Below, in pieces: positions 33,913 through 55,264 of a DNA stretch of 64,000 nucleotides; the first letter of the stretch is position 1, and each line of letters begins with the position of its first letter. The DNA is from Candidatus Gastranaerophilales bacterium. GTDB taxonomy: Bacteria; Cyanobacteriota; Vampirovibrionia; Gastranaerophilales; Gastranaerophilaceae. The position numbers and the translations under genes were made by a program. The stretch is taken from contig CALURK010000001.1 of NCBI GenBank assembly GCA_944323165.1, positions 62,001-126,000 of the forward strand. The letters are read 5' to 3'. Under the pieces are notes generated by a model. That model was not told the origin of the DNA. It did no database searches and saw nothing but the letters and a program-made list of their open reading frames with translations.

Positions 33913-33966
33913 ACTGTATCTTCTTCCTATTAAAATTTGTACTTATTACTTCATATCTTACAAAAT

Positions 33967-34000
33967 AAAAAAGACGATAACAATTGTCATCGTCTTTTTT
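33967..34000. terminator. Presumed original terminator of tRNA-Ala, displaced by the element
   Basis: A strong symmetric hairpin with arms AAAAAAGACGAT/ATCGTCTTTTTT. It lies directly against the 9-base tRNA-Ala 3'-end copy at 34001. With the element removed it would follow the tRNA CCA immediately, so it is best read as the tRNA's own terminator before insertion. It may also end the cupin-side transcripts. Confidence 0.75.
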
Positions 34001-34009
34001 ATGGTGGAG
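34001..34009. other. Left attachment site (attL core)
   Basis: ATGGTGGAG, identical to the 3' end of tRNA-Ala (CCA plus acceptor-stem bases, reverse strand) at the right boundary. Similarity stops on the inner side after this core. Confidence 0.75.
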
Positions 34010-34218
34010 CTTGACATACAGCTTGAAACTGGCAAATTACCAAAGCGTTACATAGTCTATGTTTTAAGCCAATTGAAATTCTAAAAAATATTAGTCGATA
34101 TTTTTGTGGAATTTTAGAAAAATTTTCAATATCTCTAAATAGCTTAATTTTATTGAAATATATCCAAAATTGTAATAAAAGTTATTTTTCAAAAAATTAG
34201 AAAAGAAAGGACGAAAAT

Positions 34219-49677: not shown

Positions 49678-51339
49678 ATGGTTAAATATATAGAAAATAT
49701 AAACTACGCACTTCACTTATGTGATACAGAAGACGATGAATGGCAAGTTAAGATTGCAAATTACGGATTGAGTCCGCTTGTCGTAATAAATGAAATTTTA
49801 GCAACAAAGAATAAAGAAGAAACTACTCAAAAGTTACTCATACGCTTGTGCAAAGAATCAGAGCCAAATGTATCTTATTCAATTAAATTATGCGGAGAAG
49901 ATGAGATTGATATAAAATCATTCGTTAGAGCTGTGCACAGAAATATTATTGGTTTATGGGAAAACTTTAGTAAAACAACTTTTAATATTCTCCGGCATGA
50001 ACTTAGCTTCTGTGAAGTTAAAATTGATATTTATAAAAACATAGGATACCAGTATTCACTACCAGTATATGTATTAGGAGATAAGCTCTTTAATTTTGAA
50101 GTTAAGCAGCTTGAAAAATATTTATCTGTATTAGATAAATTACAATTAACTGAAATGGAAAAACTCCAAATTTTAGAGTTTAGCTCTCCTAAAATTAAGA
50201 TTTATGAGTCAGAAAATCCAAAACAAATTTTATTAGAATTTGTTGAAACAATGCTAAAATTTTTTAATGATTCAGCAGTTATTGTAGCAATTGGTGTTTG
50301 TTTAGGAATTCCGTTTTTTGATTTATTCACCCAATATGCTCAAGGTTTTCCGTATATTATGTTCTATGGTGACTCACAAGCAGGAAAAACAGTATTACTT
50401 CACTGTTTAGCATCTATTTTTGGAATCAATAATAATAAAGATATTACAAGTGGAACATCAACAATAAAAGTTATTAGAAGGAATTTATCAAGGTATAATT
50501 GTTTCCCTCTTTTTATTGATGAAATAGAACAGAAACGCATTGAAGAATATGAGGATTTAGGAAAAGATAGTTTTTCTGGAATTCCTCGTAAAGTATGTTC
50601 AAAAGATGGTGGAGAAATAGTAACGGATATAAATACAACGTTTTGTGCTACGACAAATTATTTTTTCGAAAATATGACTTTAGCGAATTTTTCAAGGTGT
50701 ATTCTTGTAAATATGCCTTTTGAGCGTTTTAACCTTGATAATTTTAAGTATTTTTCAAAAGTAGAACGAGAAAAATTATCAGCAATATTGCCTTTAATTT
50801 TATCATATCGAACAGAGGTTATTGAAAGATACAAGCAACATTTTGAAATAGCTAAAAAGTATTCTAACCGTAGTAGGCTTTGTAATAATCTTGCAATCGG
50901 AATGACTATATGGTCTGTAATTAATGATATTCTTGAGGTTGAAGTTGTTAATACTGATAACTTGGCAAAAGGGTATTTTGAGTATTTTCAGCGCTATGAA
51001 GATACTGAACTAAAATATTCAGATATTTTTCTTAGTACTGTGTATCGTTTATTTAATGAAGGGCAACTTTTATATGGTAGAGATTTTGTTATTACTAGAA
51101 ATCAAGTTTTGCGCATAAATCTAAGTAAATTTTGTGCTATTTTTAACAGTTTGAATAGTAAACAAAAACTCAACACAGCACAATTAAAGCTCAAAATTGG
51201 TAATGATAGGTGCTTCGATTTTAATGCCACAGATTTAAGACCAATTGGTAAGGCAATTAAAGTTAATATTGCGGACAATGAAACTCTTTTAGACATTAAA
51301 AATCGTGTTAGCGTAAACGTAGGAGGTGAGGATGAGTAA
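49678..51339 (+). CDS. DUF927/SF3-helicase-like P-loop ATPase
   Basis: A 553-residue ATPase. Walker A GDSQAGKT is at residues 231-238, Walker B 'LFIDEIE' at about 278-284 and a sensor-type 'CATTN' soon after. The layout resembles the replicative or primase-associated DUF927/VirE-type ATPases of integrative elements and plasmids. The N-terminal 220 residues are without motif; no primase catalytic motif was seen. The start is ATG 49678, behind AAGGGA, rather than the earlier ATG at 49654. It overlaps the first recombinase gene. Likely part of the element's replication or maintenance. Confidence 0.7.
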   Translation: MVKYIENINYALHLCDTEDDEWQVKIANYGLSPLVVINEILATKNKEETTQKLLIRLCKESEPNVSYSIKLCGEDEIDIKSFVRAVHRNIIGLWENFSKTTFNILRHELSFCEVKIDIYKNIGYQYSLPVYVLGDKLFNFEVKQLEKYLSVLDKLQLTEMEKLQILEFSSPKIKIYESENPKQILLEFVETMLKFFNDSAVIVAIGVCLGIPFFDLFTQYAQGFPYIMFYGDSQAGKTVLLHCLASIFGINNNKDITSGTSTIKVIRRNLSRYNCFPLFIDEIEQKRIEEYEDLGKDSFSGIPRKVCSKDGGEIVTDINTTFCATTNYFFENMTLANFSRCILVNMPFERFNLDNFKYFSKVEREKLSAILPLILSYRTEVIERYKQHFEIAKKYSNRSRLCNNLAIGMTIWSVINDILEVEVVNTDNLAKGYFEYFQRYEDTELKYSDIFLSTVYRLFNEGQLLYGRDFVITRNQVLRINLSKFCAIFNSLNSKQKLNTAQLKLKIGNDRCFDFNATDLRPIGKAIKVNIADNETLLDIKNRVSVNVGGEDE

Positions 51340-52759
51340 GGAAATAATAGCAGATTTATACATCAGATTATCCTCTAAAAAACAAGAAAAAGGTATGTCT
51401 AAAACGTTTCAAATTTATGAATGTAAGAAATATTGTAAAAATAAGGGGTACAAAGTACGTAATATTTACTATGAAAATAAAAGTGCTAAAACCCCTGAAA
51501 AAAGACAGGTTTTTAATGAATTGATAGCAAGGCAGAAAACAAAAGAAAGAGCGGATGTTATAGTTGTTTATGCTGTTAATCGTTTGGCAAGAAATCCTGT
51601 AGATTTTTATCAAATACGTGAGCCTGTAGATAAATACAATACTGAGTTTGTTTTTGTTAGGGAATATTTAACAGTTAAAAAACCGTTTAAAGCGCATCAA
51701 AAATATTTAACAAGTATTCTAGTCGCTACGGCTGAATATGAGGTTGATGCTATGACAGAAATTCGCATGCGTGGTTCTTTAGAACGAGCATTAAGTGGAA
51801 TTCGCCCAACTAAACTGAATTATGGTTATGGGAAGCGTAACGGCAAAGTTGTGATTATTCCTAAAGAGGCGGAATTTGTTAAACAAGCTTTTACTTTATA
51901 TGCTAGTGGAAGATTTTCACTTAATTCTTTGGCTGATGAGCTTTTTCAACTTGGTTATTATTATAAGAATCAGCGTAACGGAAAAATTCCACGAGCTAGT
52001 TTGGCAAGTATGCTGAAAAGTATTTTCTATACAGGAAAGTATTACTTTCCTGGGCATGAAGGGATTATCCAAGGAAAGCATAAACCTATTATTGATGAAG
52101 AACTTTTTAATCAAGTTCAAAAGGTTTTAAAAAAGCCTTCCAGTGAAATCAAAGAGAAACATCAATTTTTGTATAATGGATTGATTAGGTATAAAGAAAC
52201 TGGTGGTTTTATGAGCGGTGAGGTTAAAAAAGGGGGTAAATATATTTACTATACTGCTCGTAATGCGGATAATTCTTGTTGTTGTATAAATGAAGAGATT
52301 ATTAATGAAAATGTACTTAATCGTCTTAAGCTTATTAAGTTAAATAAAATCCCTAAAAATATTGCAAATGAGGTTTTTAAAGAACATTTAAAACCAATGT
52401 CACAAGCACTTAGTACTGCAAAACGAGCCTTAAGCCGTCAATATCATGAGGAGTTAAAACTCAAAGAATATGTTGATATTAATGGGATTGAAGATACTGA
52501 TTTTATTGAGTCGGAGTATGCTGAGATTAAAGAAAAGTATAAGGATGTTTCAAGTAATATTCAGATGTTGGAAGATAGAATATCTTTGCAAAAATCTAAT
52601 TATCAAGAGGTTTTAAACAAGAATCTTGCAGAAGTCTTTAGAAATTTAGGTTTTGAACAGAAGCGACAAGTACTAGAACTTGTCAAAAGTAAATTTGATG
52701 GGAATTTTGATAAAAAAGTAAAAATAACCTTCAAATCTGCGTTTAGAAAACTTCTGTAA
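51332..52759 (+). CDS. Large serine recombinase with degenerate zinc ribbon
   Basis: A 475-residue recombinase. N-terminal resolvase domain with nucleophile Ser in 'YIRLSSKKQ' (S14) and 'VVYAVNRLARN'. The recombinase domain is at about 175-290 ('LNYGYGKRNGKVVIIPKEAEFVKQAFTLYASGRFSLNSLADEL'). In the next region the zinc-ribbon cysteines are largely gone: 'GLIRYKETGGFM' replaces the CxxC and only 'SCCC' remains. A coiled coil at about 375-430 and a C-terminal DNA-binding part follow. AGGAGGTGAGG precedes ATG 51332. A terminator follows. It may act with or regulate the second recombinase. Confidence 0.85.
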   Translation: MSKEIIADLYIRLSSKKQEKGMSKTFQIYECKKYCKNKGYKVRNIYYENKSAKTPEKRQVFNELIARQKTKERADVIVVYAVNRLARNPVDFYQIREPVDKYNTEFVFVREYLTVKKPFKAHQKYLTSILVATAEYEVDAMTEIRMRGSLERALSGIRPTKLNYGYGKRNGKVVIIPKEAEFVKQAFTLYASGRFSLNSLADELFQLGYYYKNQRNGKIPRASLASMLKSIFYTGKYYFPGHEGIIQGKHKPIIDEELFNQVQKVLKKPSSEIKEKHQFLYNGLIRYKETGGFMSGEVKKGGKYIYYTARNADNSCCCINEEIINENVLNRLKLIKLNKIPKNIANEVFKEHLKPMSQALSTAKRALSRQYHEELKLKEYVDINGIEDTDFIESEYAEIKEKYKDVSSNIQMLEDRISLQKSNYQEVLNKNLAEVFRNLGFEQKRQVLELVKSKFDGNFDKKVKITFKSAFRKLL

Positions 52760-53619: not shown

Positions 53620-55218
53620 ATGGAACATAAGCCAGTTGTAATTTATGCAAGAGTATCAAGCCGTGAACAGGAACGAGAAGGTTTTTCTATACCTGCACAA
53701 TTAAAGTTACTTAAAGAATATGCTCTTAAAAATGGTTTTCAAATTGTTAAGGAATATTCAGACGCTGAAACCGCTAAGAAGGTTGGAAGAACAAATTATA
53801 ATGAAATGCTTGCATTTCTGAGAGAAAATCCAAATATAAAAACTGTTCTTGTAGAAAAAACAGATAGGCTTTATAGAAATTTTAAAGATTATGTAACTCT
53901 TGAAGATTATGATCTTGAAGTACATTTAGTTAAAGAAAGTACTATTATAAGTAAAAATTCAAAATCACATGATAAATTCATTCATGGGATAAAAGTTTTA
54001 ATGGCAAAGAACTACATAGATAATCTTTCTGAAGAAATTTCAAAGGGTTTAAAAGAAGCTGTAGAAGAAGGATATTGGCCATTCCAACCACCTTATGGAT
54101 ATTTAAGAGGTGCTAAAAAGAATCTAATCATTGATAATTCAAGGATTTTATTTGTAAAAAGAGCTTTTGAATTATTTGCCACTGGTAAATATTCACTTAG
54201 AAAACTTTGTGAACAACTATTTATAGAGGGATATTATTACAAGGCTGACAGACTTAAAATAACTAATTCAGTTCTTGAATCAATGTTAAAAAACGTTATC
54301 TATATAGGTCAAATGAATTGTAACGGTATAATTTATCAAGGAAAACATCCTGCTATAGTAAGTCGTGAGCTTTTTGACAAGGTACAAAAAGCATTTTTAA
54401 AAACTGATAGATCAAAGGTTCGTAAAAATTTTGAATTTATATATCCAGGAATTGCAAAATGTGGAGTATGTGGATACGCTTTTTGCGGAGAACGTCAAAA
54501 AGGTAATGTTTATTACAGATGTTCACACTATGACAGAAGTTGTCCTAATACTGAGTATATTTCTGAAAAACAATTAACTCAGGCATTAAGAATGCACTTG
54601 AAAAGAATAGGGTTAAAACCTGAAATTTATGATTTAGTGAAGCTTTCTTTAAAAATGGCTGTTGGTGATGAGCAAGAATATCATAAGCAAGAAGTGACAA
54701 GAATTAATGCAGAGTTAGAAGATTGCAAGGAAATTTTAAAAAAGATGTATTTAGATCAGGTAAATAATATTTTAGAATACGATTTATGGGTAAATCTAAA
54801 AAATGAATATGAAATAAAGCTAAGCCGTCTTATGTCAGAACTTCAACTTCATAATAAAGCTAATACAAATTTCTTTGATACAGGTCTTAAAATCCTTGAT
54901 TTATGTGGACGTGCAAGCTTACCAGCCACCGAACTTTCTGCTCAAGAAGTAGCAGATATTGTACGACAGACATATTTATCCGTTAAAATTACCAATCGTA
55001 AAGTTAATGTAATTTTCGCTGAACCATATGCTACTATTGAAAAATTGGTAAATTTAGCAAAAATAGGAATATCAGAGTTTGGATATGAAAATTTTAAGCA
55101 AAAAATAATTTCTTCTTATGATAAAAATAATGCAAATACTAAAAAAGAGCCCGAAGGCTCTGATTTAAATTGTTCTGTTTGTTTTAAATGGTGGAGGTTA
55201 GGAGATTCGAACTCCTGA
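53620..55218 (+). CDS. Large serine integrase whose 3' end runs into tRNA-Ala
   Basis: A 532-residue serine integrase. Resolvase domain with nucleophile Ser in 'IYARVSSREQ' (S13) and 'LVEKTDRLYRN'. The recombinase domain is at about 160-260 ('PPYGYLRGAKKNLIIDNSRILFVKRAFELFATGKYSLRKL'), and an intact zinc ribbon at about 285-325 ('KCGVCGYAFCGER...YYRCSHYDRSCPN'), then a coiled coil at about 355-415. The last codons cross the tRNA terminator (55141-55161), the attachment core and end within tRNA-Ala at TGA 55216-55218. It adjoins attR, as expected of the enzyme that placed the element. Confidence 0.9.
   Translation: MEHKPVVIYARVSSREQEREGFSIPAQLKLLKEYALKNGFQIVKEYSDAETAKKVGRTNYNEMLAFLRENPNIKTVLVEKTDRLYRNFKDYVTLEDYDLEVHLVKESTIISKNSKSHDKFIHGIKVLMAKNYIDNLSEEISKGLKEAVEEGYWPFQPPYGYLRGAKKNLIIDNSRILFVKRAFELFATGKYSLRKLCEQLFIEGYYYKADRLKITNSVLESMLKNVIYIGQMNCNGIIYQGKHPAIVSRELFDKVQKAFLKTDRSKVRKNFEFIYPGIAKCGVCGYAFCGERQKGNVYYRCSHYDRSCPNTEYISEKQLTQALRMHLKRIGLKPEIYDLVKLSLKMAVGDEQEYHKQEVTRINAELEDCKEILKKMYLDQVNNILEYDLWVNLKNEYEIKLSRLMSELQLHNKANTNFFDTGLKILDLCGRASLPATELSAQEVADIVRQTYLSVKITNRKVNVIFAEPYATIEKLVNLAKIGISEFGYENFKQKIISSYDKNNANTKKEPEGSDLNCSVCFKWWRLGDSNS
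55141..55161 (-). terminator. Terminator of tRNA-Ala supplied by the element
   Basis: On the minus strand AGAGCC-TTCG-GGCTCT followed by T-run, 30 bases downstream of the tRNA CCA. It is located inside the 3' end of the integrase gene, so the element provides a replacement for the terminator displaced to 33967-34000. Confidence 0.75.
55188..55196. other. Right attachment site (attR core) in tRNA-Ala 3' end
   Basis: ATGGTGGAG, comprising the reverse complement of the CCA end, discriminator base and first acceptor-stem bases of tRNA-Ala plus one flanking base. Identical to 34001-34009. Confidence 0.75.
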
Positions 55219-55264
55219 CCCCCTGCGTGCAAAGCAGGTGCTCTACCAGCTGAGCTAAACCCCC
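55189..55264 (-). tRNA. tRNA-Ala (anticodon TGC)
   Basis: Cloverleaf with acceptor GGGGGTT/AACCTCC (one G-T pair), D-arm GCTC...GAGC, and anticodon stem CCTGC/GCAGG with loop TTTGCAC giving TGC. T-loop TTCGAAT. CCA encoded at 55189-55191 on the minus strand. It is intact despite the adjoining element. Confidence 0.95.

Follow-up and report, generated by a model that had tools for sequence, protein, structure and literature searches.

A family of tRNA-targeting serine integrases whose C-terminal tail changes with integration state, a possible degradation switch

What happens to an integrase whose gene runs across its own attachment site? The question is raised by a gene near the right end of a mobile element in a 64,000-nucleotide stretch of DNA from a Candidatus Gastranaerophilales bacterium (the whole analyzed stretch is termed the window herein). 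The open reading frame (ORF) at positions 53620 to 55218 (forward strand) encodes a protein of 532 amino acids when integrated, with Resolvase, Recombinase, and Zn_ribbon_recom domains (all above the Pfam cutoff), and by these domains its product is a large serine recombinase (serine integrase). The YxRVSS motif, which we take to be the catalytic motif of the serine recombinase, is nearly invariant across 26 aligned relatives. Full-length relatives with 81 to 73% identity were found among 144 related genomes (in G007, G036, G015, and G071), and several of the closest named relatives, in a scan of named genomes, are from Candidatus Gastranaerophilales.

The last codons of the ORF lie within a tRNA-Ala (TGC) gene, which was detected by ARAGORN at 55189 to 55264 (reverse strand) and is the insertion site, with the intact copy at attR. 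The stop codon TGA (55216 to 55218) is inside the tRNA gene, and the final 30 bases of the ORF are antisense within it; the integrated-state tail RLGDSNS, together with this stop codon, occupies 55195 to 55218 (forward strand, antisense to tRNA-Ala). An earlier note on this DNA had claimed that the integrase crosses the core, stops in tRNA-Ala, and ends in ...WW-RLGDSNS, and the ORF and ARAGORN coordinates agree with it. Of the two terminal copies of the 9-bp core, ATGGTGGAG, the one on the right is located at 55188 to 55196 (forward strand, attR) and the one on the left at 34001 to 34009 (forward strand, attL), the latter being supported by relatives with the same boundary; with ATGGTGGAG at both ends, the element is ∼21.2 kb long. 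By chance, 0.14 copies of ATGGTGGAG would be expected in the window, as estimated from shuffles. A third exact copy is present inside the element at 50606 to 50614. Integration is predicted to occur between attP and attB sites with a short core, based on the 9-bp core and on unoccupied sites in relatives.

When the right end is joined to the left end across the core, the integrase frame reads ...CFKWWSLTYSLKLANYQSVT*, with a TAG at 34053 to 34055; the note had anticipated a frame that stays open across the circular junction up to a TAG at about 34056. After the residues WW, the tail comprises 7 residues (RLGDSNS) in the integrated form versus 15 residues (SLTYSLKLANYQSVT) in the circular form, and both lengths had been given correctly. 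The 3' piece of the frame that encodes SLTYSLKLANYQSVT and the TAG (34008 to 34055, forward strand), for which homologous left ends are found elsewhere, is dormant at the left end and becomes joined to the integrase gene only in the circle. An exact search of viral contigs for the window's left-end junction pattern gave no matches.

Next to the left core is a chromosomal hairpin followed by a T-run (33965 to 34002, reverse strand), identified from its inverted repeat and from empty sites as the native tRNA-Ala terminator that was displaced by the element. Unoccupied tRNA-Ala genes lie directly against a terminator of this kind at four loci (L180, L182, L183, and L178), which fixes the element boundaries. 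Another terminator-like hairpin with a T-run lies within the integrase coding sequence at 55139 to 55161 (reverse strand) and reads away from the tRNA. Two hairpins of this type were found, versus 0.1 expected, and the one at 55139 to 55161 is kept in relatives, including a locus in G047 (L323) at which the stem sequence is different and the hairpin is retained. It would end transcription of tRNA-Ala after integration, the native terminator being displaced, and it accounts for the constraint upstream of the core.

Random starts within the element stay open for at least 15 codons in 40% of cases, so that the open frame of the window element alone proves nothing; it is the family-wide sequence pattern, not the window element, that carries the argument against chance, and chance was rejected as the cause of the open frame on the family data, not on the window. 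The relatives comprised 30 loci from the 144 related genomes and 79 of the best 80 of 549 from named genomes, which after removal of duplicates gave 96 distinct loci: 68 cross an RNA gene, 1 stops before it, 17 have no detected RNA gene, 6 end at contig edges, and 4 are truncated. Hence, at 68 of the 69 loci with an RNA gene at the integrase end (among the 30 loci and the best 80 of 549), the ORF enters this gene antisense with no earlier stop. The crossed genes cover 14 tRNA types and tmRNA, namely, tRNA-Asn (22 loci), Gln (10), Ala (9), Ile (6), Glu (5), Asp (4), Arg (3), and Gly (2), with Val, Pro, Ser, His, Met, Trp, and tmRNA crossed once each. The exception is L024, in which the integrase stops 160 bp before the tRNA. 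The earlier note had asked whether the frame is conserved among homologues and would have taken related integrases that stop ahead of the core as evidence against its proposal; such a stop was rejected as the family pattern (1 of 69 loci), and a C terminus that depends on integration state is, as judged by sequence, a trait of the family, given that the RNA gene is entered at all but one of the 69 informative loci. Hosts among the matches listed include Gastranaerophilales, Alphaproteobacteria, Zixibacteria, Acidobacteria, and Omnitrophica. For the alphaproteobacterial members, a search for left ends yielded ambiguous candidates and none that was convincing, and a search of isolate phages and plasmids for the family returned only distant matches (<60% identity). 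Members that end in tmRNA (ssrA) genes are represented by L042 and L025/L126; in such cases, the gene for the host's own degradation tag would be the insertion site of an element whose integrase tail is itself possibly ssrA-like.

Free forms of the family were found among viral contigs. Of 37 distinct contigs with a family member, 11 carry the integrated form or break off at the site and 3 contained truncated recombinases; the 23 that were kept encode a full-length integrase, contain no tRNA, and have a frame that continues beyond the core into a phage-encoded tail. Genes for an endolysin (L031 and L205), a tail assembly chaperone (L202 and L205), and a possible endonuclease (L208) follow beyond the core, where the other ORFs tested gave weak or no matches; the remaining contigs were called free from the absence of a tRNA. 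Within a subfamily, paired free and integrated members match up to the core and then diverge (L205/L046, L202/L029, L041/L042, and L031/L005). For example, free L205 reads NGG-IYKPKLEP...LDLAA versus NGG-TDEARTRDLLRDRQAL in integrated L046, free L202 reads YGA-RELPT...LLDVA versus YGA-GDEARTRDILLGKEAFYH in integrated L029, and L041 ends in ...KYAAA where L042 instead enters tmRNA.

The free tails share their final residue. Alanine is C-terminal in 19 of the 23 free integrases (LVA, LAA, DVA, KCA, LCA, KIA, and AAA), compared to 3 of 56 integrases in the integrated form, 6 of 172 neighboring ORFs, and none of 47 unique tails of distant serine integrases (ORFs of >380 amino acids; from 48 tails, L409 was removed as a duplicate of a family member, being on the same contig as L212). 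The excess is retained after clustering, with alanine ends in 15 of 19 clusters at 90% identity, 11 of 15 at 70% (P = 1e-13), and 5 of 9 at 50% (P = 6e-6), the P values being computed against the 6 of 172 neighboring ORFs. Terminal alanine codons are GCA (10), GCT (6), GCC (2), and GCG (1), and all three stop codons (TAA, TAG, and TGA) are used. Many of the tails end in a single alanine after V, C, or I and not in the canonical AA. The four free forms without terminal alanine end in PLQNQ (L031, the closest free phage relative of the window), KNAV, LAMC, and KKAE.

Tails of the free form are also stored in chromosomes. The G080 chromosome contains two 3' pieces behind a terminator, ending in RKVA and KKVA, and G054 carries the same stored piece ending in KVD (two of the six matches in this search, L414 and L415, were judged to be chance). 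Among 14 Ala-type left ends and tandem junctions (L307 was dropped as a chance match, and the chance-like L320 to L322 were left out), 7 end in alanine (SVA, KIA, QIA, and TA), including those of G007, G015, and G071, genomes that also have a full-length integrase. The 7 others, some of them in decayed-looking elements, end in threonine (2; the window and G034), isoleucine (2), phenylalanine (2), or leucine (1). The circular tail of the window ends in -SVT and that of its closest relative, G007, in -SVA; with threonine as the last residue where G007 has alanine, a degradation signal (degron) is uncertain for the window element, in which it may have been weakened. Tandem arrays at tRNA-Ala were observed in L310 (G007), L313 (G011), and L318 and L323 (both G047). 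In these three genomes, the left end of one element lies directly against an older integrase tail, so that the fused frame of the free state is present naturally in the chromosome.

The note had suggested that the swap could tune excision versus integration and had offered no mechanism; the comparison suggests one, a C-terminal degron that only the free form would carry. The best explanation for these patterns is probably that the free tail is an ssrA-like degron, which would be replaced upon integration by an antisense-tRNA peptide. In this model, the integrase gene of the tRNA-targeting family contains its own attP. As long as the element is a free circle or phage, translation would pass the core and continue through a short 3' piece supplied by the element, adding a helical tail that in most relatives would end ssrA-like (-LAA, -LVA, -DVA, -KCA, or -KIA). 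Since its tail would end in such a degron, the free-form integrase is probably short-lived. Integration would carry the 3' piece over to the opposite end and leave a protein that ends in a degron-free antisense-tRNA peptide; with the degron replaced, the integrase of an integrated element should have greater stability and be available for excision. Once the element is excised, this would restore the degron, so that newly made integrase would be removed and reintegration discouraged. Integrase made from the circle would thus be labile, limiting both integration and reintegration, and integrase from the integrated element would persist until excision is triggered. The tmRNA tags of the host class end in AA (the tag of this genome is ATDNVVVADFSRAAARRAA); most free tails also have a final alanine, often with V, C, or I immediately before it. 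The host genome encodes a ClpX-type zinc domain. Sequence data show the frame, the swap, conservation across the family, alanine at the tail ends, and purifying selection in the tail; we infer that ClpXP or a protease like it recognizes the tail and that integration and excision are affected. The broader proposition, that widespread tRNA- and tmRNA-targeting serine integrases use their own attP as a protein stability switch by which integration state controls integrase lifetime, we regard as evenly balanced.

An unlikely alternative, though the best of those considered, is that the free tail is a working segment of the recombinase that favors synapsis of attP with attB and is lost for excision, the terminal alanine being incidental. 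Divergent free forms, 43 to 60% identical to the alignment reference, still align along the tail (LE-x-FI-x-L-x-F-x-LK-x-A), and pN/pS along it is <1, mostly 0.1 to 0.65 (for L205/L207, pS is 0.57 and pN is 0.11), indicating that purifying selection acts on the protein sequence of the tail. AlphaFold places two low-confidence helices in the tail (residues 488 to 500 and 503 to 510) in a model with a mean pLDDT of 76.5 and a pTM of 0.39 that was built from 14 sequences only. These are features that a working segment would have, but the low model confidence in the tail counts against it, as does tail length, which ranges between about 15 and 40 residues, with the Ala-type tails being short. Moreover, the most constant feature of the tail is its last residue (19 of 23). 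The last four residues are unstructured in the model, which fits an exposed end without proving one.

Less likely again is that the overlap arose as a by-product of the tight packing of attP and the integrase gene, with a frame that is open by accident and tails that have no function. The ease with which a 15-codon run stays open in the element is in line with this, as are an integrated-state tail that is dictated by the tRNA and the lack of terminal alanine in the tail of the window and in several Ala-type tails. A by-product would not, however, account for the crossing at 68 of 69 loci, nor for an excess of C-terminal alanine that is strong, occurs only in free forms, and is accompanied by synonymous codon variation and low pN/pS. 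That selection acts instead on the overlap DNA, comprising attP arms and an antisense terminator that replaces the one lost by the tRNA and shields the integrase gene from transcription in the antisense direction, with the tail as a passenger, is highly improbable, because the hairpin (here 55146 to 55161), kept in relatives and reading away from the tRNA as it is, explains the stretch before the core but not the alanine-ended tails after it.

Archaeal integrases of the SSV type are tyrosine recombinases whose gene contains attP and is split by integration. The integrase described here likewise has attP within its gene, but whereas integration breaks the SSV-type gene, here merely the last residues change. 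Closer to the proposed degron switch is the integration-dependent immunity of BPs-type mycobacteriophages, in which, according to the available parts of the reports, attP lies in the repressor gene and integration at a tRNA gene removes a degradation tag (PMC9262239, PMC8092301, PMC9934374, PMC4557955). Those parts also state that the tyrosine integrases of these phages may be tagged, describe no removal of that tag, and report that serine integrases of Mycobacterium abscessus prophages insert in protein genes (PMC9262239, PMC8092301, PMC9934374, PMC4557955). As far as BPs is described there, the two systems have in common an attP inside a coding sequence and the removal of a C-terminal end by integration at a tRNA gene. 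Unlike in BPs, with its split repressor and tyrosine integrase, attP lies here in the gene of a large serine integrase, and a candidate tag would be swapped for an antisense-tRNA peptide on the integrase instead of being removed from the repressor. A terminal alanine, the candidate tag of the viral form, is found in 19 of 23 free relatives, the window's own tail ending in -SVT. The BPs principle would thus be applied to the serine integrase itself, in a system that works like integration-dependent immunity without being a member of it.

Integration of serine recombinase elements into tRNA genes has been called rare, the examples given being mycobacterial AICEs (tRNA-Leu) and the filamentous phage phiRSM1 (tRNA-Ser), which also use a serine recombinase and a tRNA 3' end as attB; the available part of that account speaks neither of an integrase frame that overlaps attP nor of a tail swap or a degron (PMC3218068). 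No description of a tail swap in serine integrases was found in our literature search, which had most subscription papers beyond its reach. Accessory directionality factors are usually credited with keeping serine integrases from reversing their reaction or carrying it out again. If the degron explanation is true, a switch built by recombination within the gene would add a second level of control, which could be reused as a part for genetic circuits, and it would explain the antisense-tRNA peptides at the ends of recombinases read from integrated elements. Integrases cloned from prophages may be without the tail that is carried by the phage form.

The element itself (34010 to 55187) encodes glycosyltransferase-like and ferredoxin-domain proteins, a SocA/Panacea-type gene product, and a protein with a weak DUF927-type match; no phage structural genes were identified among the proteins tested from this region, and the element has the look of a genomic island, not of a phage. 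Two genes before the integrase (51326 to 52759, forward strand), it encodes another large serine recombinase, of 477 amino acids and without a zinc-ribbon match, and weaker serine recombinase matches are also found beside the integrases of G015, G036, and G071.
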